In this document: piece by piece, positions 124 through 21,010 of the stretch
Numbering within the stretch: position 1 is the stretch's first letter
How the letters are laid out: every line of letters begins with the position of its first letter
Source: Streptococcus sp. LPB0220
GTDB taxonomy: Bacteria > Bacillota > Bacilli > Lactobacillales > Streptococcaceae
Assembly: GCF_008727815.1 (NCBI RefSeq)
Contig: NZ_CP044230.1
Span: 356,001 to 420,000, forward strand
Length of the DNA stretch: 64,000 nt
Direction: 5' to 3'
Position numbers and translations under genes: made by a program
Notes under the pieces: model-generated
Databases searched by the model: none
The model's input: the letters and a program-made list of their open reading frames with translations, nothing else
What the model was told of the DNA's origin: nothing

Positions 124-3100
124 TTACTCAACTTCTTTCTTTTTCAAGAGGAGGAAGCCTCCGCTAACGGCTAACAAGAAGCCTGAAAGAATGAAGTGCG
201 CAGTTGTGTCTTCTCCAGTTTGTGGCAATTGTGCCTTGGCTGGACTTTCTTGGAAGCTTTGTCCTACTTGGTAAGTCAAGGCTTGCACGCTTTCTTCATT
301 TTTTGTTGTCATTTCTTTTTGTGGAAGGAGCACTTTAGGAGTATCCTTCTTGGCTAAGATTGGCTGTGGATTGCTTGTTTGGTTATGAATTGGAACCACC
401 ACTTGATCTGGTTCTTTAGCTGGAACGTAATCCATCAAGCTTGCCAACTTGCTGCCAAAGATCGCATTGGTTACCCAGCGGAAGAAGTGGACAGGGTGTT
501 GACGGTTGGTTGGATTTCCTGCATAGACAAAGAGTGGTTGTCCCATCAGTTCTCCAGAGATGGCCATGACTTTGTTGGCCAGAACATCATTATGTGGCCA
601 CCAACCTGCAATATAATAATCGCTCGGAGCGATGCTCATCAAGGTCTTGAAATGTTCTGGAACCTTTTCAATCCAGTTTCCTGAGTTGGAGTAGAAGAGG
701 GTATTCTTCTTGTATCCGCTGGTCAATGGATCCTGATCATCAATGATCGCTTTCATCAAGCCTTCGTAGTCACTACCGCCTTTTAGTTTTTCAGCGTCAA
801 ATCCTGTAAGAACTCCCAATTTTTCCAGCTTTTGCATGGCTTCCCCACCAATGACAAGGGTTGGTTTCTTGCCAAAAATGGAAGCGTCAAAGCGGTTGCT
901 TTCCAAAATAACAACATCCGCTTCTTCTGGTGTATTGACGATTTGGAAGCCTAATTTTTCAAGGACCAGACTAGTATGAGCAGGCGCATCTACTCCAGCC
1001 CAATTATAGTGGTAGTTCGGAGAGTAAACCTTCATCGGTTTCAAGGTTGGTCCACTTGGCACCTTGTAGAGGGCATCACCATAAATGGCATAGTTTGGTA
1101 GGAGCGAAGCAAAGGTATCGCGGTCAACGATGTAGCCATCATCTGTTAGGTAGACAGATTTTCCTTGCGCGATGGCCTGGTTGACAGCTTTAACGGCACT
1201 GGCTGAGGTATTTGCGATCACATAGTAAGGAGCTTTTGGATCGATCTCAGAGGTACGAGTGGCGCGGGTGGTGGTGACTTCTCCTAATTTTCCGTTGAAA
1301 AGACCATCCGCAAAGACAGGTTCTGACTTGAACCCTCTCATATCTGGGAAGTTGACCAGCAACTCTGCGTACATAGCAGCCCAGGCAGATTCGTTGGAGC
1401 CCTTGTAGAGAATGTGGTTGGCATAGCCACGTTTGGCTTGGGCCATGTCAATGACCAAGTCCCCTTTTTTGTAGGGACCTGTATCTTTTTTGAGCTCTTT
1501 GACGAGGACACCATTGCGTTTGAAGTAGTCGATCATATTGAAGGCTTCTTGGGCATCGTTGTCTTTGTCGAGGCTCATTGGGATGACGTAGTAGTCTGGG
1601 AAGAATTTCGGACGACCGTTTTTCACACGTCCCACGATTTCTCCATTTGGGCCGACCAGTTCATTTTCAGCTTTTGGATCTTCGGTTTTATTGAGACCGC
1701 GCAGGTAGAAGTTGAGACGCATCTCAAGGAGACGGTCCGGATCTTGGTTGAGGAAGTCAATTCCGCCTAGGACAGCATTGCGACCTGCTTTGTAGGATTC
1801 TTCATTTCCTTCTGGAATTTCGATAGTATGGCCTAAGATACCATGGTAGACAGCATAAACTCCTGTATAGCCAGAGAAGGAGTCATCCCAGCCATCGCCC
1901 CAATCCAGTTTTGGAATGATGTAACTATTGTATTTAGAATTGGCAACTCCTGCCCGTCCCATATGATGGGCATTTTCTAGCATCAGGTCTGACAGAAGAT
2001 CGTATTCGAAGTTCGGATCATGTGGTGGCGTTGCAGGTTCGATTAAGAATTCTTTGACAAAACCGTGTAAGTCGTAGAGAGCAATCGGATTCCACTTGTT
2101 GATCATTTGGATAACCGTGCGAACTTCCGGATTTGTTTGGTAGCTGGCATCCCGGTTTGGATCGAGCCCGTTTGCTAGGGCCCGCAGGTTGAGAGCATCC
2201 CCATCTGGGTTTTCCGTGAAGTCAAATAAGAAGATGAATTTATTGAGCAGGGTTGGAATATCTAGCGTGACTGTTTTAGCATTTCCAGCTTCATCGGTGG
2301 TGTTAAAGGTTACCTTTTCCTTGGTCGCAAAGGTATTGAAGAGGCCTGTGATAATGTCAATGCCTGGCTGCTCATCCGCGTGGGTATTGTGGACTAAGAC
2401 AGGTAATTTGTAATCCAAGGTCTTGTCTTTTAGTGCGGCCAGCATTTCGCTTGGCTTAGTCAAAGCTGTAGGGTTGGTACTAGACAGGTAGTGATCGATG
2501 CTGGCTTGGTCCTTACTCACGATCCCCATCTTCATATCCCGTCCTTGGGCACTCTTTCCAAGAGTTTCCAGCTGCACCAAACGATCGGGTTTCGCTTCTT
2601 CCTTGGATTTTTCGATAGCAGCTAGCATCTCTTCATGCGTATGGTAGTCCTGATAAGGTCGAAAAACAAGGGTCTTATTGATGGTGATTCCTAAGTCTGC
2701 ATTGGTCCCGACCAGTTCATGGTTGCCGATGTAATTGCGGTAAGTCCGGCGAATATTATTTGGGCTACGAAGACTAAGATCTTGACCAAAGAGATCCTGC
2801 ACGTCGATGTGGAGATCCAGATCATTGCCGTTTGCGGTCTCTGTGATAGTAAGGAATGGATCCTTGCTCAGTGTTCCTGTCTCCATATCCCAAGTTTTCC
2901 ACTCAGAGAGTGGCTTATTGTCTAAGGTCCAGTTGATCTTGCCAGCAGCTTGAGCTTTTTCTTGGACTTTGTCATCAATCGTGCTCTTTTCAGAGAGATA
3001 AATGGTGCTATTCTCCAATCGAGTCGCTTGGTCAGCGGTTGTTGTCGCACGGTTAGTGACTGGACTAGCGGCTGGAGCAACTTCTGTACTAGAAGCCACA

Positions 3101-3345
3101 TCAGAAGTCGCTGCTGTTTCTGCAGGACTAGCAGGAGTTACTTCTGTGGCTGTAGCAGGACTGGTCGTCTCGGCTGTCACAGGTTGCTCAGTAGCAGGTG
3201 TCGCTTCAAGGACCGTGCTTGGTTCCGCTTGAGGCGCTTCTAAGCTATCGGCTGAAGCTTGGCCATGACCGATAACGGAAAGCAAGACAGCCGCTGAGAG
3301 GCTGAGTGTTGTAGTGTACAAATGTTTCTTATACGAAGACTTCAT
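124..3345 (-). CDS. LPXTG-anchored M14-family zinc carboxypeptidase
   Basis: Predicted cell-wall-anchored metallopeptidase of 1073 residues. The N-terminus is a signal peptide (KKHLYTTTLSLSAAVLL...ASADS), followed by a Thr/Ala/Pro/Glu-rich spacer of about 80 residues. The M14 zinc carboxypeptidase domain follows: the zinc motif HADE is near residue 320, another His is in DLHGF, and the likely catalytic Glu is in HTIEIPEGNE. The C-terminus has a sorting signal LPQTGE, a hydrophobic segment and a KKK tail, the substrate for sortase A. The frame extends 11 codons further upstream, but the start at 3345 is chosen because an AGGAGGG ribosome site lies 8 bases before it. The true substrate is unknown; peptidoglycan peptides or host peptides are possible. 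The promoter overlaps a cre-like site, suggesting catabolite repression. Confidence 0.85.
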   Translation of the reverse strand: MKSSYKKHLYTTTLSLSAAVLLSVIGHGQASADSLEAPQAEPSTVLEATPATEQPVTAETTSPATATEVTPASPAETAATSDVASSTEVAPAASPVTNRATTTADQATRLENSTIYLSEKSTIDDKVQEKAQAAGKINWTLDNKPLSEWKTWDMETGTLSKDPFLTITETANGNDLDLHIDVQDLFGQDLSLRSPNNIRRTYRNYIGNHELVGTNADLGITINKTLVFRPYQDYHTHEEMLAAIEKSKEEAKPDRLVQLETLGKSAQGRDMKMGIVSKDQASIDHYLSSTNPTALTKPSEMLAALKDKTLDYKLPVLVHNTHADEQPGIDIITGLFNTFATKEKVTFNTTDEAGNAKTVTLDIPTLLNKFIFLFDFTENPDGDALNLRALANGLDPNRDASYQTNPEVRTVIQMINKWNPIALYDLHGFVKEFLIEPATPPHDPNFEYDLLSDLMLENAHHMGRAGVANSKYNSYIIPKLDWGDGWDDSFSGYTGVYAVYHGILGHTIEIPEGNEESYKAGRNAVLGGIDFLNQDPDRLLEMRLNFYLRGLNKTEDPKAENELVGPNGEIVGRVKNGRPKFFPDYYVIPMSLDKDNDAQEAFNMIDYFKRNGVLVKELKKDTGPYKKGDLVIDMAQAKRGYANHILYKGSNESAWAAMYAELLVNFPDMRGFKSEPVFADGLFNGKLGEVTTTRATRTSEIDPKAPYYVIANTSASAVKAVNQAIAQGKSVYLTDDGYIVDRDTFASLLPNYAIYGDALYKVPSGPTLKPMKVYSPNYHYNWAGVDAPAHTSLVLEKLGFQIVNTPEEADVVILESNRFDASIFGKKPTLVIGGEAMQKLEKLGVLTGFDAEKLKGGSDYEGLMKAIIDDQDPLTSGYKKNTLFYSNSGNWIEKVPEHFKTLMSIAPSDYYIAGWWPHNDVLANKVMAISGELMGQPLFVYAGNPTNRQHPVHFFRWVTNAIFGSKLASLMDYVPAKEPDQVVVPIHNQTSNPQPILAKKDTPKVLLPQKEMTTKNEESVQALTYQVGQSFQESPAKAQLPQTGEDTTAHFILSGFLLAVSGGFLLLKKKEVE

Positions 3346-3382
3346 ATAGAAGACCCTCCTTAAAAAGTTATTTTCCATTTCT

Positions 3383-3411
3383 AGTATACCATTTTAGGAA
3401 AGCGTTTACAA
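3383..3411 (-). promoter_or_regulatory. Promoter with overlapping cre (CcpA) site for the M14 peptidase
   Basis: Read on the minus strand, TTGTAA (3411-3406), a 17-base spacer and TATACT (3388-3383) preceded by TGG form an extended -10 promoter. TGTAAACGCTTTCC (3410-3397) matches the cre consensus TGNAANCGNWNNCW at 13 of 14 positions and overlaps the -35 box. The sequence is direct; regulation by CcpA is inferred. Confidence 0.7.
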
Positions 3412-3422
3412 CAACTGCCTGA

Positions 3423-3453
3423 ATAAAAAAGCCTTTGCATCTTGCAAGGGCTT
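3423..3453 (-). terminator. Terminator of the minus-strand exporter gene
   Basis: Stem 3429-3439 with 3443-3453 and a 3-base loop, followed on the minus strand by a run of Ts (the A-run at 3425-3430). It separates the exporter-like gene from the peptidase gene promoter. Confidence 0.75.
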
Positions 3454-7258: not shown

Positions 7259-7651
7259 ATGTCACAAGCACAATATGCAGGTACTGGACGTCGTAAAAAC
7301 GCTGTTGCACGCGTTCGCCTTGTTCCAGGAACTGGTAAAATCACTGTTAACAAAAAAGATGTTGAAGAGTACATCCCACACGCTGACCTTCGTCTTGTAA
7401 TCAACCAACCATTCGCAGTTACTTCAACTGCAGGTTCATACGACGTTTTCGTTAACGTTGTAGGTGGTGGATACGCTGGTCAAGCAGGAGCTATCCGTCA
7501 CGGTATCGCTCGTGCCCTTCTTCAAGTAGACCCAGACTTCCGCGATTCATTGAAACGCGCAGGACTTCTTACACGTGACTCACGTAAAGTTGAACGTAAG
7601 AAACCAGGTCTTAAGAAAGCTCGTAAAGCTAGCCAGTTCTCTAAACGTTAA
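7259..7651 (+). CDS. rpsI: 30S ribosomal protein S9
   Basis: 130 residues, full length. Begins [18 protein letters not shown] and ends in the conserved basic tail [15 protein letters not shown] that reaches the P-site tRNA on the 30S head. Its last 51 bases form the attachment site of an integrative element, and the reading frame is kept intact. The gene's normal terminator has been displaced about 13 kb to 21041. Confidence 0.98.
7601..7651 (+). repeat. attL: rpsI 3' end, 51-bp direct repeat
   Basis: The last 51 bases of rpsI recur exactly at 20960-21010. A third copy at 18292-18339 encodes the same 15-residue tail with different codons. This is the left attachment site of the inserted region. 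The stretch shared by all three copies includes AAAGCTCGTAAAGC and AAACGTTAA, which probably contain the crossover. Confidence 0.9.
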
Positions 7652-7762: not shown

Positions 7763-8980
7763 TTACTTTTTAAGGTTACGGTAGGCAATTTCACCAACAG
7801 CCATTGGTATGACATTTGAAGTGTTGACATAGGTCTTAGTTGTGAGAGTATCGCTATGCGTTAACGCTTCGGAAATAGCTTCAATAGATGTTCCAGCCTG
7901 TCTAGCTAGTGTTGCGCCTGTATGTCTTAATTTATGGGGTGTTGCATGTGCAAGTTCTGGATGACGACGTCTGACTGACTTCATCTTGTTGTTAAGATAA
8001 TCGGCATGTAGTCGGCTATTTACATTTCCTTTTGTATCAATATACGTAAAAACATACTGTTCAGGAGTTTGCATGATGTTAAATGAAGCCAGTTCAGATT
8101 TTTGTTGCTTCTTCCAAGAATTTAACAAGCCGGTAAGTTCTTGTGGAATCGAAAAAATCGTTTTTTTGTTCCCCTTTGTAGATTTTGGATGTTTGTATTT
8201 GTCTAAAGCTTGGACTAATTGGATTTCATGCTTCATAGTGTTGATGTGTTTCCATTGCAAAGCATAGCTTTCGGATTTTCTATCTCCTAAGAAAAAGGTG
8301 GTGTAGAATAGCACATAATCCTTGAATGAAAGCTTACCGTTTTCTAAGTCATCTTCAAACGCTGTAAACCATGCTTGAAGTTCTTCTTGAGATAGATATA
8401 AATCTTCGTCTTTTTTAGCTTCTTGTAACTTGATTTTCTTAGTGGCTTTGATACGACTTATTGTTTTTGATAGTCGGTTAGTTTCGATATATTCCAATTC
8501 CTCAGCCCAATCAAAGATTGAATTAACATAGCTTTTAATCACCCTAAAGTTTGCATATTCTTCGGCTTTTTGGGTTAAGAGGTTCAAGACGACTTGTTTA
8601 TTCTGGTTGAGAAAGTCAATGGAATAATTGCCAAGCATAGGTAAGATATGCTTCCTAAAGACAATTTCTGTTCCGTCAATTGTTGCTTGTGATGGTGGTT
8701 TTGTAGTTGAGGTTGTTTGACCTGCCTTGTAAGATTCCCACCAAATGTTTTGGTAGAATTCTGAGAATAGCATTGAATCGCTATTTTCTAAAGAAGCTGA
8801 TTCACCATTTAGGATTCTATCAAATTTATTTTGTAATTCGAGTTCGTATTTTTTAGCATCACTCCTTTGTTTGAACCGTTTTTCTATCACTTTTTTATTA
8901 ATTCCCAATGAGGATTTGACTTCTTCTGGGACATAGATACGTAAGCGATAAGTTCCGTTTTTAGTTTTTGTAATTGACAT
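7763..8980 (-). CDS. int: Tyrosine-type site-specific integrase
   Basis: A 405-residue tyrosine recombinase. The N-terminal 60 residues form an arm-binding domain (NGTYRLRIYVPEEV). A SAM-like core-binding domain spans about 75-175. The catalytic domain has the box-I Arg in GDRKSESYALQWKH, the H-x-x-R-H motif HKLRHTGATLA near 365, a following H (ALTHSDTLTT) and the Tyr nucleophile in KTYVN. It lies at the left end of the element pointing toward rpsI, the normal arrangement for an enzyme that integrates into a gene 3' end. Expected to insert and, with Xis, excise the element at the rpsI tail. Confidence 0.93.
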   Translation of the reverse strand: MSITKTKNGTYRLRIYVPEEVKSSLGINKKVIEKRFKQRSDAKKYELELQNKFDRILNGESASLENSDSMLFSEFYQNIWWESYKAGQTTSTTKPPSQATIDGTEIVFRKHILPMLGNYSIDFLNQNKQVVLNLLTQKAEEYANFRVIKSYVNSIFDWAEELEYIETNRLSKTISRIKATKKIKLQEAKKDEDLYLSQEELQAWFTAFEDDLENGKLSFKDYVLFYTTFFLGDRKSESYALQWKHINTMKHEIQLVQALDKYKHPKSTKGNKKTIFSIPQELTGLLNSWKKQQKSELASFNIMQTPEQYVFTYIDTKGNVNSRLHADYLNNKMKSVRRRHPELAHATPHKLRHTGATLARQAGTSIEAISEALTHSDTLTTKTYVNTSNVIPMAVGEIAYRNLKK

Positions 8981-13129: not shown

Positions 13130-13183
13130 TTTGGTGTATTTTGGTGTAGAATGCAGATGGTTTAATAAAAAAAATACACCAAA
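13130..13183. promoter_or_regulatory. Inverted-repeat operator between divergent element genes
   Basis: A perfect 13-bp inverted repeat, TTTGGTGTATTTT (13130-13142) and AAAATACACCAAA (13171-13183), with an extra half-site TTGGTGTA at 13141-13148. The right arm ends 10 bases before the ATG of the HTH gene. This is the expected position for an autoregulatory repressor site that also controls the leftward transfer operon. Confidence 0.65.
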
Positions 13184-13193
13184 GGTGAGGAAG

Positions 13194-14537
13194 ATGGATT
13201 TTATTAATAGTAGTAATGTATTTTACCAATATACAGCAGATAGGTTGAAAAGACGTAGAGAAGTGCTGAAATTAACAAATGATGTGATTGCTAGAAAAAA
13301 AATTTTTGTGCATTACGAGGCGTATAAGGATTGGGCAACAGATGAAGATGAGCCTGAAAAATTTATAAGTGAGGATAATATAGAGAAAACGAAATTTGAC
13401 TCTACTTTAATTTCACGAATTATTAATAATGAGAGGGGAAAGATTGGAAGAAGAAGCTCCCCGAATCCTTTTTTGATCCCACCTTCATATGAAGAATTAT
13501 TAGTAAAACAGTTACAGTTTAATAGTAAACGCGAGCTATTTTGGGGAGCATCTGTTGAAACTGAATATATAGCAAAGACTTTTTATACAAATTTGTTTGA
13601 AGAAGTATTGGCTGATAATCAGTCGGAATTGAGTGAGATACTAAATTTGTGTTTAATAGATTATGTTCCTTATTCTAGAGATTTAGCGTATTACCAAATG
13701 ATTGTAGAGAGATGTATCGAACAGTATAGTGAATCTTCAGATCAGTCAGATTTGATGGGAATTAAAAAGAAAAATAGTGAAATATGGAATACATTTATTG
13801 ATTTGTTAGATAATGATTTTGAATACCTAATTAATAGTTTACAAAAAGGAGACTATTTGGTAATTATCATGTATGCAACAATTAATTTTATAATGGATTT
13901 GGTTGGGAAAAATGAGGATAGAAATGATATACACTCTGTTTTTAGTTCATTTCAGATATTAAGAACAAATATAGAATACTTCAGGAGAGAGGCGATTGGC
14001 CGTATCATTTATACAAATTTTGATAGTTTACTTGAATTGTTTCAAGATTATTTTTATAAACTGGATAATTTTAAATCTTTAAATAAAAAAATATCTAAAT
14101 TTACTTTGGATATTCTAACACCGTTTTTCAAGGAATTATTAGGCAATTCGGATGAGTTTAAAAACTACTCGCTTGGATATAGAGTAAAAAATATTATTGA
14201 AACAGATATTGAAAGTATTTTTTCTTACGCAAGTAAAGTTTCTCAAGAACAATTTGATGATACTACAAATCCGAATAGTAACATGTATAAGAAGTGGTTG
14301 CAAACTACCAAAGCTTACATATCTGATCTCAAATATATTCAGTGGCTTACAGATGGAGCAAGATTAGTAGATTCTGCTCAAAAGGATCTAGAAAGATGTT
14401 ATATAGCGTGTTCAGATATTGAAAATCTTCATAGTGATTGGTTAAAGAAGTATAATAGTTATCTCTCGAATATTGACTTAATCGAGTATGGATATTATAT
14501 GGAAGCTGATGAATACGATGAACTGCTTGATAAATGA
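13194..14537 (+). CDS. Large XRE-like transcriptional regulator of the element
   Basis: 447 residues. The start at 13194 is chosen because GAGG lies 6 to 9 bases before it; the frame is open further upstream through the operator. The N-terminal ~90 residues look like an HTH_3/XRE domain with an insertion (YTADRLKRRREVLKLTNDVIA, then STLISRIINNERG). The remaining ~350 residues are helical and acidic, of no recognised family, and could be a sensor domain. Divergent from the replication/transfer operon, it most likely controls excision and transfer. Codon use is much more AT-rich than in the flanking housekeeping genes. Confidence 0.65.
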   Translation: MDFINSSNVFYQYTADRLKRRREVLKLTNDVIARKKIFVHYEAYKDWATDEDEPEKFISEDNIEKTKFDSTLISRIINNERGKIGRRSSPNPFLIPPSYEELLVKQLQFNSKRELFWGASVETEYIAKTFYTNLFEEVLADNQSELSEILNLCLIDYVPYSRDLAYYQMIVERCIEQYSESSDQSDLMGIKKKNSEIWNTFIDLLDNDFEYLINSLQKGDYLVIIMYATINFIMDLVGKNEDRNDIHSVFSSFQILRTNIEYFRREAIGRIIYTNFDSLLELFQDYFYKLDNFKSLNKKISKFTLDILTPFFKELLGNSDEFKNYSLGYRVKNIIETDIESIFSYASKVSQEQFDDTTNPNSNMYKKWLQTTKAYISDLKYIQWLTDGARLVDSAQKDLERCYIACSDIENLHSDWLKKYNSYLSNIDLIEYGYYMEADEYDELLDK

Positions 14538-14716: not shown

Positions 14717-15883
14717 ATGGCTAATTCTCGTCAAGCACATTTGACAAAAGCAAAAAAAGGAAAGAATGATGAATTTTATACCCAGTGGTCGGATATAGAA
14801 AAAGAGGTTAATGCATATATCGAATATAATCCAGATGTTTTTCGTAACAAAATAATTTTACTCCCAGCTGATGACCCTTTTGAGAGCAATTTTTTTAAGT
14901 TTTTTGCGACAAAGTTTAATGAATTCGGAATCAAAAAGCTGATAGCGACCTCATTTGCTCCGAGCCCTATTGTCAATACCCAATTAAGTTTGCTACCTGA
15001 ACTAATTCCGGATATCGATTTTGAAGTATCTGGTGATAAGCAGATAAAAGGAGCATACAAAATAGAATTAAATGAAGTGATTGATGAAGATGGGACTGGT
15101 ACAGTTAATATAGAAGATGTTATAAAACGTTTACAAAAAGAAAAAGATTTAATAGATTCAGGCCAAAATAGTCAAATTTTATCATATTTGAAGGGAGATA
15201 ATAACCCAGATGGCATTAGCAGGTTTTCTGCAGGTGATTTTAGAAGTGAAGAGGTAACTGGACTCCGAAATCAAGCAGATATGATAATTACTAACCCACC
15301 ATTTTCCCTATTTCGTGAGTTTTTAAGTTGGATTAATCCACTGGAGAAACAATTCTTAATCATTGGAAATATGAATGCAATTACCTATAAAGAAGTATTT
15401 CCATTGATTAAGGAAAATAAAATTTGGCTTGGTACAGGAATGGGACGCTGGATATCAGGTTTTATCGTGCCAGAAACATATGAACTGTATGGTACAGAAG
15501 CAAGGATTGAGAATGGTAATAGGATTATAGCAACGAATAATGCCCTTTGGATGACTAACATAGACCATGGAAAGAGGCATCAGCCCCTATCTTTAATGAC
15601 TATGGAAGACAATATTAAGTTTAGTAAACATAAGAATGTGAAAGGTCATGAGTATTCCACTTATGATAATTTTGATGCTATAGAGGTACCATACACAGAT
15701 GCAATACCATCTGATTTTTCAGGTATAATGGGAGTACCGATATCATTTCTTGATAAATTCAATCCAGAGCAATTTGAAATTTTAGGTCTAGATAACCCAA
15801 CCGATGAATTTATTGGGCATGGTCCTCTATTAAATGGTAAAACAAAGTATAGAAGAATCTTTATCAAAAAGGTGAATAAATGA
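14717..15883 (+). CDS. EcoRI-family adenine-specific DNA methyltransferase
   Basis: 388 residues. It has the N6-adenine methylase catalytic motif NPPF ([10 protein letters not shown], near residue 193). Its opening [18 protein letters not shown] and [16 protein letters not shown] are typical of the EcoRI_methylase family (PF13651, from memory). Expected to methylate adenine in a specific site, which cannot be predicted here. It overlaps the DUF262-HNH gene by ATGA, so the two products are made together. In a restriction pair this would be the self-protection enzyme. AGGAGA precedes the ATG. Confidence 0.85.
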
Positions 15884-17046
15884 AAACAGAATTAAATACT
15901 TACACAGTTAAAGAGATTACAGAAGGATTTGTCTACAACGAATTTGAAGGTAAGGGTCTTTTTGGATTAGCTGGAAAATTAACAATTCAACCTGAATATC
16001 AAAGAAATTATATTTATGCTGATGGTAAAAGAGATGTAGCCTGTATTGACTCGCTAATGAAGGGGTATCCATTAGGACTAATTTATTTCAATAAGGTAGA
16101 CAAAGATAAATATGAGGTTTTAGATGGTCAACAGCGGATTACATCTATAGGTAGGTATGTGAATGGAAAGTTTGCAATAGAACTGAATGGTAATAAACAT
16201 TATTTTTCAGGCTTAAGTAGGGAACAACAAGAACTTATTTTAAATTCAGTTTTACTAGTCTATGAGTGTGAAGGTACTGAAACAGAAATAAAAGAATGGT
16301 TTAAAACAATCAATATTTCAGGTGTTCCATTGAATCAGCAAGAACTAAGAAATGCTATTTATTCTGGTACATTTGTAACATTGGCTAAACAAGAGTTTTC
16401 TAATTCTCAAAATGCCAATCAACAAAAATGGCAGACATATATAAAAGGTGTACCTAATAGGCAAGAAATTCTAGAAGAAGCTTTAAAATGGGTAAGTAAG
16501 GGTAATATCGATGATTATATGTCGAAACATCGTAATGATACAGACATTAATGAATTAAAGACTTATTTTGAGACAGTTATTGATTGGGTATCTAGTGTTT
16601 TTGTAAATGTTGAATCAGAAATGCGTGGATTAGAGTGGGGAAGATTGTACGAAGAATATCATAATAATTCGTATAATCCTACTGAAATTGAACAAAGACT
16701 ATCTGAATTATATGAGGATAGTGATGTTTCAAAGAAATCGGGTATTTATGAATATTTATTAAGTAAAGAAAAACCTGAATTGATAAAATTACTATCAATC
16801 CGAGCGTTTACAGAAACAGATAAAAAGTCAAAATATAGAGAACAATCAAACGAAGCTAAAAAATCAAACATCTCAAATTGTCCTGTTTGTAATACAGATA
16901 TACCGTATGACCACATGACTCATATATGGGCATATGACGAAATGGCTGGTGACCATATTGTACCATGGAGTAAAGGCGGAAAAACAGAGCGTAACAATCT
17001 TCAAATGTTGTGTAAGCACCACAATAGTTTAAAATCTAATTACTAG
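15880..17046 (+). CDS. DUF262 plus HNH endonuclease, partner of the adjacent methylase
   Basis: 388 residues. The N-terminal DUF262 (ParB/sulfiredoxin-like, as in GmrS and BrxU) has [10 protein letters not shown], then [14 protein letters not shown], whose DGQQR motif is considered the NTP-using active site. A helical middle region follows. The C-terminal HNH nuclease (from about residue 330) has a Cys pair CPVCNTDIP, the core [14 protein letters not shown] and a second metal-site segment [11 protein letters not shown]. Known DUF262 enzymes of this kind attack modified DNA (type IV), but here the partner is a methylase, so it may instead cut unmethylated DNA. A defence role is inferred from architecture and location on a mobile element. 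Confidence 0.8.
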
Positions 17047-17079
17047 GAAAATTTAATTCTTGAGACTAATATTATCAAT

Positions 17080-17175
17080 GGAGAGAACTTTTGGGTAAGA
17101 TATGTTCTAATTTATGTATTTGTAGAGATTTTTACTTATCAGATTATATTAGTTAGATTAGATGAAAATTTGAGT
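17080..17175 (+). repeat. Degenerate copy of the element's right-end sequence
   Basis: TGGAGAGAACTTTTGGG and the following 30 bases (to TGTAGAG) align closely with the right-end sequence at 18122-18172 (TGGTGTGAACTTTTTGG...). This includes the shared AATTTATGTATTT, and later ATTAGATGAAA. The arm-site word TGGTGTGAA has decayed to TGGAGAGAA. No rpsI tail follows this copy. It looks like the remnant of an earlier right end, beyond which the RNA-nuclease cassette was added. The rest of 17047-17225 holds no gene that I can support. Confidence 0.55.
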
Positions 17176-17225
17176 CATAAAAATTCTTGAACGTATTGAT
17201 TAAAAAGTTTTTTTAAAATTTTTAC

Positions 17226-17254
17226 TTGACAAAGTGATGGAAATTAGGTAGTAT
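17226..17254 (+). promoter_or_regulatory. Promoter of the structured RNA upstream of the nuclease
   Basis: A consensus TTGACA (17226-17231), a 17-base spacer and TAGTAT (17249-17254); TATAGT at 17252-17257 is an alternative -10 with 20-base spacing. Transcription would start near 17261, about 175 bases before the nuclease ATG, giving a long untranslated RNA. Confidence 0.7.
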
Positions 17255-17260
17255 AGTAAT

Positions 17261-17421
17261 TGTAGAACACAACTATCGCTTTTAGCGTAGCCAAAGAATC
17301 ACTGGTCGGTCTGTTTTGGTCAGTGGTTTGTAGATAGGCTTATTTGGGTTTTATATATTTTCCGCAAGCAGACGAATAAATATATCGTAGAAAGAGGTGT
17401 AAATAGCCTCTTTATTTTTTT
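17261..17421 (+). ncRNA. Structured RNA ahead of a BECR-fold nuclease; candidate RNA antitoxin
   Basis: About 155 bases without a coding frame. Visible helices are CGCT/AGCG with a TTT loop (17277-17287), CTATC (17273-17277) with GATAG (17333-17337) or alternatively AGCC with GGCT, the 8-bp AATCACTG (17297-17304) with CAGTGGTT (17321-17328), and the 8-bp ATATATTT (17353-17360) with AAATATAT (17378-17385), whose loop holds GCAAGCAGACG. It ends in its own terminator. Promoter, structured RNA, terminator, nuclease gene is the order of type III toxin-antitoxin loci. The tandem repeats usual in ToxI-type RNAs are absent, so it would be a different class. Function inferred. Confidence 0.55.
17391..17421 (+). 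terminator. Rho-independent terminator between the RNA and the nuclease gene
   Basis: AAAGAGG (17391-17397) pairs with CCTCTTT (17407-17413), followed by ATTTTTTT. It ends 15 bases before the nuclease ATG, so it would let most transcripts end as the small RNA and a minority continue into the gene. Confidence 0.85.
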
Positions 17422-17436
17422 GAGAAAAGGTATAAT

Positions 17437-18072
17437 ATGTTAAGGAATTTAATTCTTAGTTATAGGACGTTAATGGACACTCAGTATAAATTTACTATTA
17501 CTCAGACCATTTCTGGACAAACTACAGAAAAATATATTGAATTAAGCTTCACAGAACCGAATTTCCATCATCTTATAGGTTTGCACAAGCTTAAAGGGGT
17601 AGATAAAGTCAAGTGTTTCAACGGTAAGACAGCTCAGGATATATATAACCAAATTTTGGGAAATCATATTACTTTTTATGATTTAGATAAAGATACATCT
17701 CAGCACAAGGCCGCATTTTTATCTAGGGCAACTTCTCTGAATCTAATTTATACGATGTTGGATAATATAAGGGGCAACTTAAAGGGGTTGTATTATTTTG
17801 ATCCCAAAAAAATAGGTTCTAATATTAAAGCAAAGTATTTATTGCATTTTCAATATAGGGATAAGGAATTTTATTTTTTATTTGATAAATCCGCTAAGAA
17901 GGTTAAGAATACTGATATTTGCTACCCAGTTTCAGTTTTTCGAAAAAAAATACAGAGCGAAATGAGAGCAGGGAATACCGCAAAACATTATGAAATGAGT
18001 CAAACTCTTATCAACTTAGTGAAAGTTGAAAAAATACAGGGGACCACTACTACTACACTATATAAAAAATAG
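17437..18072 (+). CDS. PBECR4-like (Barnase-EndoU-ColicinE5-RelE fold) nuclease, putative toxin
   Basis: 211 residues. From memory the sequence fits the PBECR4 family: an opening that binds to YKFTITQ, then the signature FTEPNFHHLIGLHKLKGV, a middle HxxAFLSRATSLNLIYTML helix, KAKYLLHF, YFLF and a C-terminal TTTLYKK. Family members are predicted RNases of phages and conjugative elements. Catalytic residues cannot be assigned with certainty; the His pair in the signature is a candidate. AAAGG lies 6 bases before the ATG. The gene stands alone behind a structured RNA and terminator, and is closed by a strong terminator: an isolated cassette next to the element end. No protein antitoxin gene is adjacent. 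A toxin or abortive-infection role is inferred. Confidence 0.7.
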   Translation: MLRNLILSYRTLMDTQYKFTITQTISGQTTEKYIELSFTEPNFHHLIGLHKLKGVDKVKCFNGKTAQDIYNQILGNHITFYDLDKDTSQHKAAFLSRATSLNLIYTMLDNIRGNLKGLYYFDPKKIGSNIKAKYLLHFQYRDKEFYFLFDKSAKKVKNTDICYPVSVFRKKIQSEMRAGNTAKHYEMSQTLINLVKVEKIQGTTTTTLYKK

Positions 18073-18100
18073 CTTACTTGACATCAAGAAGCTATTTTTT
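18067..18100 (+). terminator. Terminator of the nuclease gene
   Basis: AAATAGCTT (18067-18075) pairs with AAGCTATTT (18089-18097), extended by CTTGA/TCAAG inside, followed by Ts. It overlaps the stop codon of the nuclease gene. Confidence 0.85.
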
Positions 18101-18121
18101 GATAGTGATTGTTGCTATATA

Positions 18122-18184
18122 TGGTGTGAACTTTTTGGTAAAATCTAGCTCAATTTATGTATTTTTAGGGTAAAATTCACACCA
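18122..18184. repeat. Right-end arm-type sites of the first unit
   Basis: TGGTGTGAA (18122-18130, inverted) and TTCACACCA (18176-18184, direct), 54 bases apart, 108 bases before the middle rpsI tail. The same pair with near-identical spacing lies at 20792-20855. These match the four repeats at the integrase end, marking this as an integrase-bound element end. Confidence 0.75.
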
Positions 18185-18291
18185 TTCAACTGAAAGTTAT
18201 TCAAATTAGATGAAATTCTGTTTTCTGAAAATGTGGGAAAACATTGATTTTAAGCGGATATTGAAATCTATTCAAATATGAGATGTTCCAA

Positions 18292-18339
18292 CCAGGCTTG
18301 AAAAAAGCTCGTAAAGCATCACAATTTAGTAAACGTTAA
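18292..18339 (+). repeat. Middle att site: synonymously diverged rpsI tail
   Basis: Sixteen codons encode [15 protein letters not shown] plus stop, identical in protein to the real rpsI end but with different codons at many positions (GGC TTG AAA AAA against GGT CTT AAG AAA, TTT AGT against TTC TCT). It is followed by its own hairpin terminator at 18359-18393, like a displaced rpsI gene end from another strain or species. It divides the insertion into two stacked units. Confidence 0.85.
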
Positions 18340-18357
18340 AACTTATTTAAACTTATT

Positions 18358-18395
18358 GAAAGCATTTCGTATCAAAAATACGGGATGCTTTTTCT
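18358..18395 (+). terminator. Terminator following the middle rpsI tail
   Basis: A stem of AAAGCAT..CGTAT with ATACG..ATGCTTT around 18359-18390, then a T-run. Its position relative to the rpsI tail matches the native rpsI terminator at 21041. The following stretch 18396-18690 is AT-rich and I see no gene in it. Confidence 0.65.
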
Positions 18396-18692
18396 GTTCA
18401 CCCCAAATTTTTGTAACTAGGTGATACTTGAAATTAATACAAATTTGGTTGTTTTTGATAAATCTAAGCAACACTAAATGATGAAGTGAAAGGGGATGAA
18501 TCTTTGATAGTATTCATTTATTGTGAAATATGATATATTTATTAATTAGATGGATGAATACTTCTAGAGTTAAATATAGCATAATAGGGACAGACTTTTT
18601 GGTTTATTTTTGTTTGTAGTCGGATTATGAAAGAATATCCAATATTATGCGATAAGATAGAATGTTACAAAAAAGAAAGGGGATGCAATCCG

Positions 18693-20959: not shown

Positions 20960-21010
20960 AAACCAGGTCTTAAGAAAGCTCGTAAAGCTAGCCAGTTCTC
21001 TAAACGTTAA
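20960..21010 (+). repeat. attR: exact copy of the rpsI 3' end
   Basis: 51 bases identical to 7601-7651, ending in the rpsI stop TAA. A short frame at 20807-21010 that ends in this copy is only an artefact of the repeat. Beyond it the ordinary chromosome resumes with the native rpsI terminator. Confidence 0.9.

Follow-up and report, generated by a model that had tools for sequence, protein, structure and literature searches.

A drum-like RNA upstream of a free-standing PBECR4 gene in Streptococcus: a candidate RNA-nuclease module

Introduction

In type III toxin-antitoxin (TA) systems, RNA repeats are followed by a terminator and a toxin gene (PMC12373285, accessible part). The accessible text of PMC12804078 treats the known type III families. 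A microbiome RNA survey (PMC8040213) describes RNAs upstream of ToxN, and its accessible part mentions neither drum nor BECR. A related arrangement is AbiF with RCd22 in C. difficile, where a structured RNA lies upstream of a toxic protein gene and was shown to bind and neutralise the protein (PMC12373285, same part).

PBECR domains occur commonly in the polyvalent proteins that phages and conjugative elements encode, and PBECR RNases carry His and Ser/Thr at described positions (PMC5512222). Solo versions were already noted there. The proposed targets are host, phage or CRISPR RNA, and the accessible part of that paper names no RNA partner. We found no mention of PBECR4 in the literature searched, and type III toxins and BECR occurred together there only in one type II TA study.

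Drum (RF02958) and Bacilli-1 (RF02931) are listed by Rfam as sRNA genes. The literature searched gave no function or partner gene for drum. RF02958 is named in an RNA-structure paper, a folding preprint and the Rfam 14 paper, and the words "drum RNA" occur in the RNA-structure paper. Bacilli-1 and the PBECR4 domain are absent from these papers. In the accessible parts, the Rfam 14 paper uses drum as an example family only, and the drum content of PMC8191799 concerns the k-turn.

Here we analyse a cassette in the 2.13-Mb genome of a Streptococcus (G000), within a stretch of 64,000 nucleotides that we call the window. As in ToxIN, AbiQ, CptIN and TenpIN, an RNA gene, a terminator and a protein gene follow apparently one promoter, and one PBECR4 branch has tandem-repeat RNA (two ~54 nt repeats). 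However, the protein is PBECR4 by Pfam and not of the ToxN, AbiQ, CptN or TenpN family, and the window, drum and Bacilli-1 RNAs are not known repeat antitoxins. AbiF is a HEPN-family protein. The cassette resembles the AbiF locus in the structured RNA upstream of a protein gene, but RCd22 has two repeated motifs and AbiF is of another family (PMC12373285, accessible part). With the PBECR domains of PMC5512222 it shares the Pfam family, the His and Ser/Thr positions and the solo form; it differs in the RNA beside the gene.

Results

The cassette at 17226-18100 consists of a promoter-like site, an ORF-free stretch, a terminator, a 211-aa gene and a terminator-like hairpin (Table 1). The anatomy claimed for it in a preliminary description is real. 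The promoter-like site is present as described. With 12 such sites in 17000-18600 and 9.5 expected, this site taken by itself does not exceed chance. Its TTGACA and spacing are kept in a second copy of the cassette, where similarity to the window begins. The 5′ end of the RNA (17261) was placed from the promoter and the model match.

Table 1. Features of the cassette and its surroundings, in positions of the window
Feature	Coordinates	Strand	Evidence or remark
rpsI 3′ end, one element end	7601..7651	+	exact 51-bp copy at 20960-21010; diverged copy at 18290-18339
Tyrosine recombinase (Phage_integrase) of carrier element	7763..8980	-	integrase gene identified
EcoRI-type adenine methyltransferase, upstream cargo	14717..15883	+	Pfam; type II restriction-modification model match
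GmrSD_N + HNH protein, type II restriction enzyme model match, upstream cargo	15880..17046	+	
Promoter-like site TTGACA-17-TAGTAT	17226..17254	+	promoter scan; consensus match 10/12
Structured non-coding RNA with own terminator, drum-like (RF02958-like, sub-threshold)	17261..17420	+	identity with SK667 copy, drum model, R2
Long apical hairpin, arms 17296-17309 / 17316-17329	17296..17329	+	folding; compensatory pair 17300/17325
Intrinsic terminator separating RNA and gene	17391..17421	+	terminator scan; stem 17391-17413 and T-run
Free-standing PBECR4 (PF18813) protein gene, 211 aa	17437..18072	+	Pfam; candidate catalytic His45 and Ser166
Terminator-like hairpin, overlaps stop codon	~18065..18100	+	by eye; reverse-strand self-match

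The RNA of about 155 bases had been called non-coding, free of tandem repeats and strongly paired. The first two points were borne out. No ORF of at least 20 aa (ATG, GTG or TTG starts) lies in 17261-17420, none besides the PBECR4 gene overlaps 17200-17440, and 17226-17436 has no tandem repeat of at least 12 nt. Strong pairing failed as a single-sequence test, as the RNA folds no better than its shuffles (z -0.80; 40 of 200 shuffles fold equally well). The terminator ahead of the gene was found where it had been claimed, its T-run ending 15 bases before the ATG; the regional scan gave one terminator with 0.4 expected. The second terminator is plain by eye, and its self-complementarity appears as a reverse-strand match, but the scan that found 17391-17421 missed it. 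No protein-antitoxin gene lies beside the cassette, also as claimed: the gene before it fits a restriction-enzyme model, and on the other side the listed ORFs of at least 50 aa resume at 18627. With no ORF for it, a protein antitoxin was rejected.

The window protein matches PBECR4 (PF18813) at 62 bits, with a Pfam cut-off of 27, in agreement with the PBECR4-like assignment made earlier. Two other Pfam matches in the scan were both below their cut-offs, and no NCBIfam or PADLOC model matched at E 0.001. A ToxN relation was rejected, as the preliminary description had also held, since Pfam, which presumably contains a ToxN model, gave it no support. Among the 29 sequences aligned, position 45 (helix 40-46) is always His, and position 166 (strand 159-169) holds Ser 22 times and Thr 7 times. 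We read His45 and Ser166 as probably corresponding to the PBECR configuration of PMC5512222. A check for a non-nuclease fold had been proposed. Foldseek and VIA-align gave no confident match of that kind, no confident BECR match either and no clear solved relative, and a sequence search of solved structures returned only two matches (E 0.33 and 0.46). The nuclease claim therefore rests on Pfam and the two residues.

Thirteen related proteins were listed, as proteins without DNA. Searches with the window protein gave no matches in plasmids or phages, and its family gave none in viral contigs. The L035 protein had no match in phages, nor did the L076 and L056 proteins in plasmids. Many PBECR4 matches in Streptococcus lie in open frames of more than 1000 aa.

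A second copy of the cassette is present in S. mitis SK667 (NZ_JPFV01000011; L033). Similarity runs from the promoter to just past the gene (879 bp, 84.6%), and the flanks, at 52 and 51%, are at the level of unrelated DNA. The cassette is thus shared as a unit between two unrelated contexts. Upstream of the SK667 copy is what we take to be a csm operon with two csm6-like genes; downstream are one ORF and then, presumably, alaS. The SK667 cassette occurs without the restriction-modification (R-M) genes of the window, so a plain R-M accessory was rejected.

The RNA is identical at 153 of 160 positions between the two copies and the coding sequence at 534 of 636, with 147 of 212 third positions and 31 of 47 fourfold sites identical. 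The RNA is therefore more conserved than the surrounding reading frame. Two of the seven differing RNA bases, 17300 and 17325, are hairpin partners, changed from C-G to U-A. The conservation in SK667 and this compensatory pair support the predicted RNA structure. A scan of genome contigs gave SK667 alone, so the window's own sub-branch consists of two DNA examples. A DNA search with the window RNA matched 48 of 284 streptococcal genomes; only the window genome and G107 (taken as SK667) matched at full length, and the other 46 matches were pieces of 19-38 bases.

At the gathering score, no Rfam family matched the window RNA. Against the full drum model (1-112) it scored 17.8 bits (E 1.5 over 4227 families; gathering score 43), and the SK667 RNA scored 19.6 bits (E 0.52 over 4227 families). 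For drum alone these E-values would be about 4000 times smaller by arithmetic; unrelated Rfam families reach similar bits in the same stretches of the window and SK667. Despite its low score, the window RNA shares with drum its place upstream of PBECR4, a full-length model alignment, the GGGUU...CC.CAAGC core and the outer and apical stems. The outer stem, the apical stem and the GGGUU part of the core are aligned in both RNAs, at weak scores. No k-turn was recognised by eye in the alignment of the SK667 RNA to drum, and the window RNA core was not found as an exact pattern in viral contigs.

The RNAalifold structure behind a first model, R1, lacked the outer and apical stems. R2, which took its place, was made from nine drum sequences of lactobacilli (eight distinct) and excluded the window. 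R2 gave a single listed match in the window, 17261-17395, at 12.4 bits. Referred to the 387 bases ahead of the gene, its E-value is 0.0016; over 184.6 kb it is 0.73, and a chance match off the RNA in L035 came close at 11.7 bits. The model is also insensitive, as L062, L076 and L098 were unlisted at E up to 5. By its position, its layout and the weak full-length match, the window RNA is drum-like, without being a certified drum.

The nine drum sequences support the outer stem, the apical stem and a 5′ hairpin, with 93.1% of cells paired. Cells changed on both sides number 18, whereas shuffles gave 5.5 and slid structures 7 at most, in a test biased towards the drum structure because that structure derives partly from nearly the same sequences. 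A possible loop-to-3′ pseudoknot has four pairs, which are invariant and uninformative.

The preliminary description had looked to conservation of the RNA across homologues. In addition to the SK667 identity, drum RNAs are equally placed upstream of PBECR4 in other Bacillota. Drum reaches at least 43 bits directly upstream of PBECR4 in two of five drum-like streptococcal loci (L035, 46.4; L038, 48.1); L034, L051 and L062 are below the gathering score. Outside Streptococcus, all three free-standing loci found have drum in this place (L076, 60.3; L098, 52.3; L099, 43.0 bits). The same was seen in 6 of 6 plasmid loci (L102-L107, 46.4-51.8 bits) from S. suis, Enterococcus sp., E. faecium and E. 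faecalis, fetched from 20 matched records, several near-identical. Defence genes lie near some cassettes: DolA/DolB and a TIR protein on pV662optrA, and AbiH on pEFM9-2. On the E. faecalis plasmid of L106, an Enterococcus sRNA Ref1C-like match (2571-2701, minus strand; 77 bits, cut-off 90) lies divergent from drum.

In viral contig L156, drum scores 87.4 bits upstream of a 206-aa PBECR4 frame (E 2.5e-48). A drum sequence pattern gave 27 stretches in viral contigs; they were taken as chance, because the 17 scanned had no drum. A second viral contig, L157, has a 195-aa PBECR4 frame at 2860-3444 (72.6 bits, E 1.3e-21).

PBECR4 was found in 3 of 299 genomes of a phylum sample; drum upstream of it scores 17.8 bits in G000, 52.3 in G636 and 43.0 in G829. 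With drum as the query, matches were found in 2 of the 299 phylum genomes (filters were stricter and G829 went unreported), 1 of 208 order genomes and 4 of 61 genomes in the family of G676, which was picked as the centre for its drum. In total, 6 genomes gave 7 distinct matches, and two of these matches fall below the gathering score (30 and 41.2 bits). Downstream, four have an intact PBECR4 frame: G636, and L152, L153 and L155 with E 1.8e-40, 2e-33 and 5.7e-25 to the A2 profile. In L152 and L153 drum scores 89.4 and 69.5 bits, with PBECR4 directly downstream. One match, L135, has a truncated frame of 97 aa (E 9.5e-17). No PBECR4 was detected downstream of drum in L100 (drum 1501-1609) and L154, which are either lone RNAs or RNAs in another role.

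Two further RNA classes precede PBECR4 in Streptococcus. From the short-frame matches of the genus, 40 loci were fetched and the others left out; a Lactococcus lactis control match was left out of the locus reading. An upstream RNA class was assigned in 35 of the 40: 10 drum-like, 14 tandem-repeat and 11 Bacilli-1 (RF02931). These counts are not independent events, because loci of one genus share ancestry. Ten of the Bacilli-1 loci were found by motif; L057 was missed by the motif and came from the Bacilli-1 search (same place as L148). Five loci have none of the three classes (L047, L048, L053, L054 and L073). In L053 and L073 the frame has 129 aa and starts only in the late part of the PBECR4 domain, and L048 seems to belong to a longer coding region. 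The upstream stretches of L047 and L054 have no Rfam match at E 0.1.

By a strict scan, 25 of these 35 loci have a terminator after the RNA and before the gene, against 95 of 700 shuffled stretches. By class, it was found in 10/10 drum-like, 11/11 Bacilli-1 and 4/14 tandem-repeat loci. Among the 10 tandem-repeat loci that the scan missed, inspection by eye shows a hairpin and T-run in L045 and, with an interior mismatch, in L040.

Bacilli-1 reached its gathering score upstream of PBECR4 in 7 of 7 such loci tested. As a query against 108 streptococcal genomes, it gave 16 matches in 15 genomes, one sub-gathering (L150). Downstream of these, PBECR4 is intact in 8, stop-broken in 2 and absent in 6 (L136, L139, L140, L141, L143 and L150), the first five of which appear to share a single conserved site on the chromosome. 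A skipping-rope RNA (RF02924) immediately follows two of the PBECR4 genes that go with Bacilli-1 (L056, 3068-3145, minus strand; L061, 3769-3849, plus strand).

The tandem-repeat RNA has two copies of 51-54 nt with a start-to-start spacing of 54-55 (L045, L049 and L050) and is also present in Streptococcus phage Javan100 (L158). Relatives of the PBECR4 proteins of this branch occur in Lactococcus phages, behind lysis genes. L159 and L161 have about 400-450 bases with a by-eye terminator between the preceding gene and PBECR4, and no Rfam match was found in their non-coding stretches (L159, 2250-2500; L161, 2240-2500).

Discussion

At the level of sequence, the pairing of RNA and PBECR4 gene is well supported. 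We consider it likely that the cassette is a two-part RNA-nuclease module that acts like a type III TA pair. The window RNA is probably the antidote of the predicted RNase, because the PBECR4 family repeatedly travels with such RNAs. The type III-like interpretation offered earlier is supported by the promoter-RNA-terminator-gene order and by the tandem-repeat RNAs of sister PBECR4 loci. The likeness drawn to ToxIN, CptIN and TenpIN holds for the layout; it does not extend to the protein, which has no ToxN relation by Pfam, or to repeats in the window RNA. Against a type III-like reading stand this lack of repeats, a score far below the drum cut-off and an R2 match (12.4 bits) near that of chance (11.7 bits).

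In the proposed mechanism, a single promoter would give an abundant, structured drum-like RNA of ~155 nt that ends at terminator 17391-17421, and read-through past it would yield little PBECR4 mRNA. The PBECR4 protein, probably an endoribonuclease that needs no metal, would harm the cell. Binding of the folded RNA in trans would silence it, and the RNA would be shorter-lived than the protein. Upon loss of the element, or when a phage shuts down host transcription, the RNA would be gone first and the nuclease freed, which could serve mobile-element maintenance or abortive defence. Toxicity, RNase activity, RNA-protein binding and neutralisation, the antitoxin direction and the trigger are what we infer from the gene order and the comparisons above.

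The terminator in the window and in the 25 of 35 relatives would also suit a cis-acting leader, that is, a riboswitch- or attenuator-like RNA that controls read-through into PBECR4 with no trans role. So would the drum core, which is compact and conserved, and the k-turn, which folds with Mg2+ (PMC8191799, accessible part). We regard such a leader as unlikely. RNAs without a PBECR4 gene exist (L100, L154 and six Bacilli-1 loci), unrelated RNA classes serve PBECR4, a tandem-repeat RNA would be superfluous for a leader, and drum and Bacilli-1 are sRNA genes in Rfam. RNA without a gene makes up 2 of 7 drum and 6 of 16 Bacilli-1 matches, and among the 40 loci fetched the intact free-standing genes without a candidate RNA are only L047 and L054. 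This excess, the tandem repeats in one branch and the carriage on plasmids, phages and elements with defence genes favour a trans RNA antitoxin over a cis leader. Survival of the RNA without its gene is the asymmetry expected of an antitoxin; the solitary RNAs could also have a job of their own.

Alternatively, the RNA might serve the nuclease as guide, cofactor or sensor, directing or activating it against phage or plasmid RNA rather than inhibiting it. This would agree with cassettes amid defence genes (the R-M genes of the window, the presumed csm-like genes of SK667, pV662optrA and pEFM9-2) and with RNA parts that are invariant across the nine aligned lactobacillal drum sequences. However, no variable guide-like segment was seen in those nine sequences, and among their helices variation is greatest in the apical stem, which covaries. 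An effector RNA would also not be expected to persist where its protein has decayed, and we judge this role quite unlikely. The RNA and gene could even be mere neighbours that share their mobility, PBECR4 then being an accessory RNase that mobile elements carry independently of the RNA, since PBECR domains are common in polyvalent phage and conjugative-element proteins (PMC5512222, accessible part) and many matches in the genus lie in the very long frames noted above. Such coincidence is highly improbable, as the pairing recurs with drum across Bacillota, on plasmids and in a viral contig, and with two further RNA classes.

Beyond the window, we lean towards the view that free-standing PBECR4 proteins supply the toxins of a large class of RNA-controlled RNases, so far unrecognised, in Bacillota and their plasmids and phages, and that RNA scaffolds of at least three unrelated kinds (drum, Bacilli-1 and tandem-repeat) were recruited as antitoxins of this one nuclease family. 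If this is true, two Rfam families for which no function is known (RF02958 and RF02931) would gain one.

The finding that drum and Bacilli-1 RNAs pair with PBECR4 is new. No published link of either RNA with PBECR4 was found, a claim limited to the literature searched, because Weinberg 2017 and bioRxiv were outside its scope. Weinberg 2017 reportedly defined both RNAs and may mention their neighbours. With the pairing, two sRNA genes for which no function was found gain a partner gene and a testable role, and RNA-antitoxin systems would extend to another nuclease family. Since one protein family has several unrelated RNAs, it could be asked how an RNA antitoxin gets replaced. The modules lie on enterococcal plasmids, phages and elements with defence genes, and may therefore matter for plasmid persistence and phage defence.

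In the window, the cassette is the last cargo before the inner rpsI copy of an rpsI-integrated element. Three copies of the rpsI 3′ end around the integrase element likely reflect a tandem or nested pair of rpsI-integrated elements. The two genes just upstream of the cassette, for the EcoRI-type methyltransferase and the GmrSD/HNH protein, both match type II R-M models. The cargo preceding them encodes a 468-aa protein (13131-14537) with no Pfam match at E 1 and no NCBIfam or PADLOC match at E 0.001.
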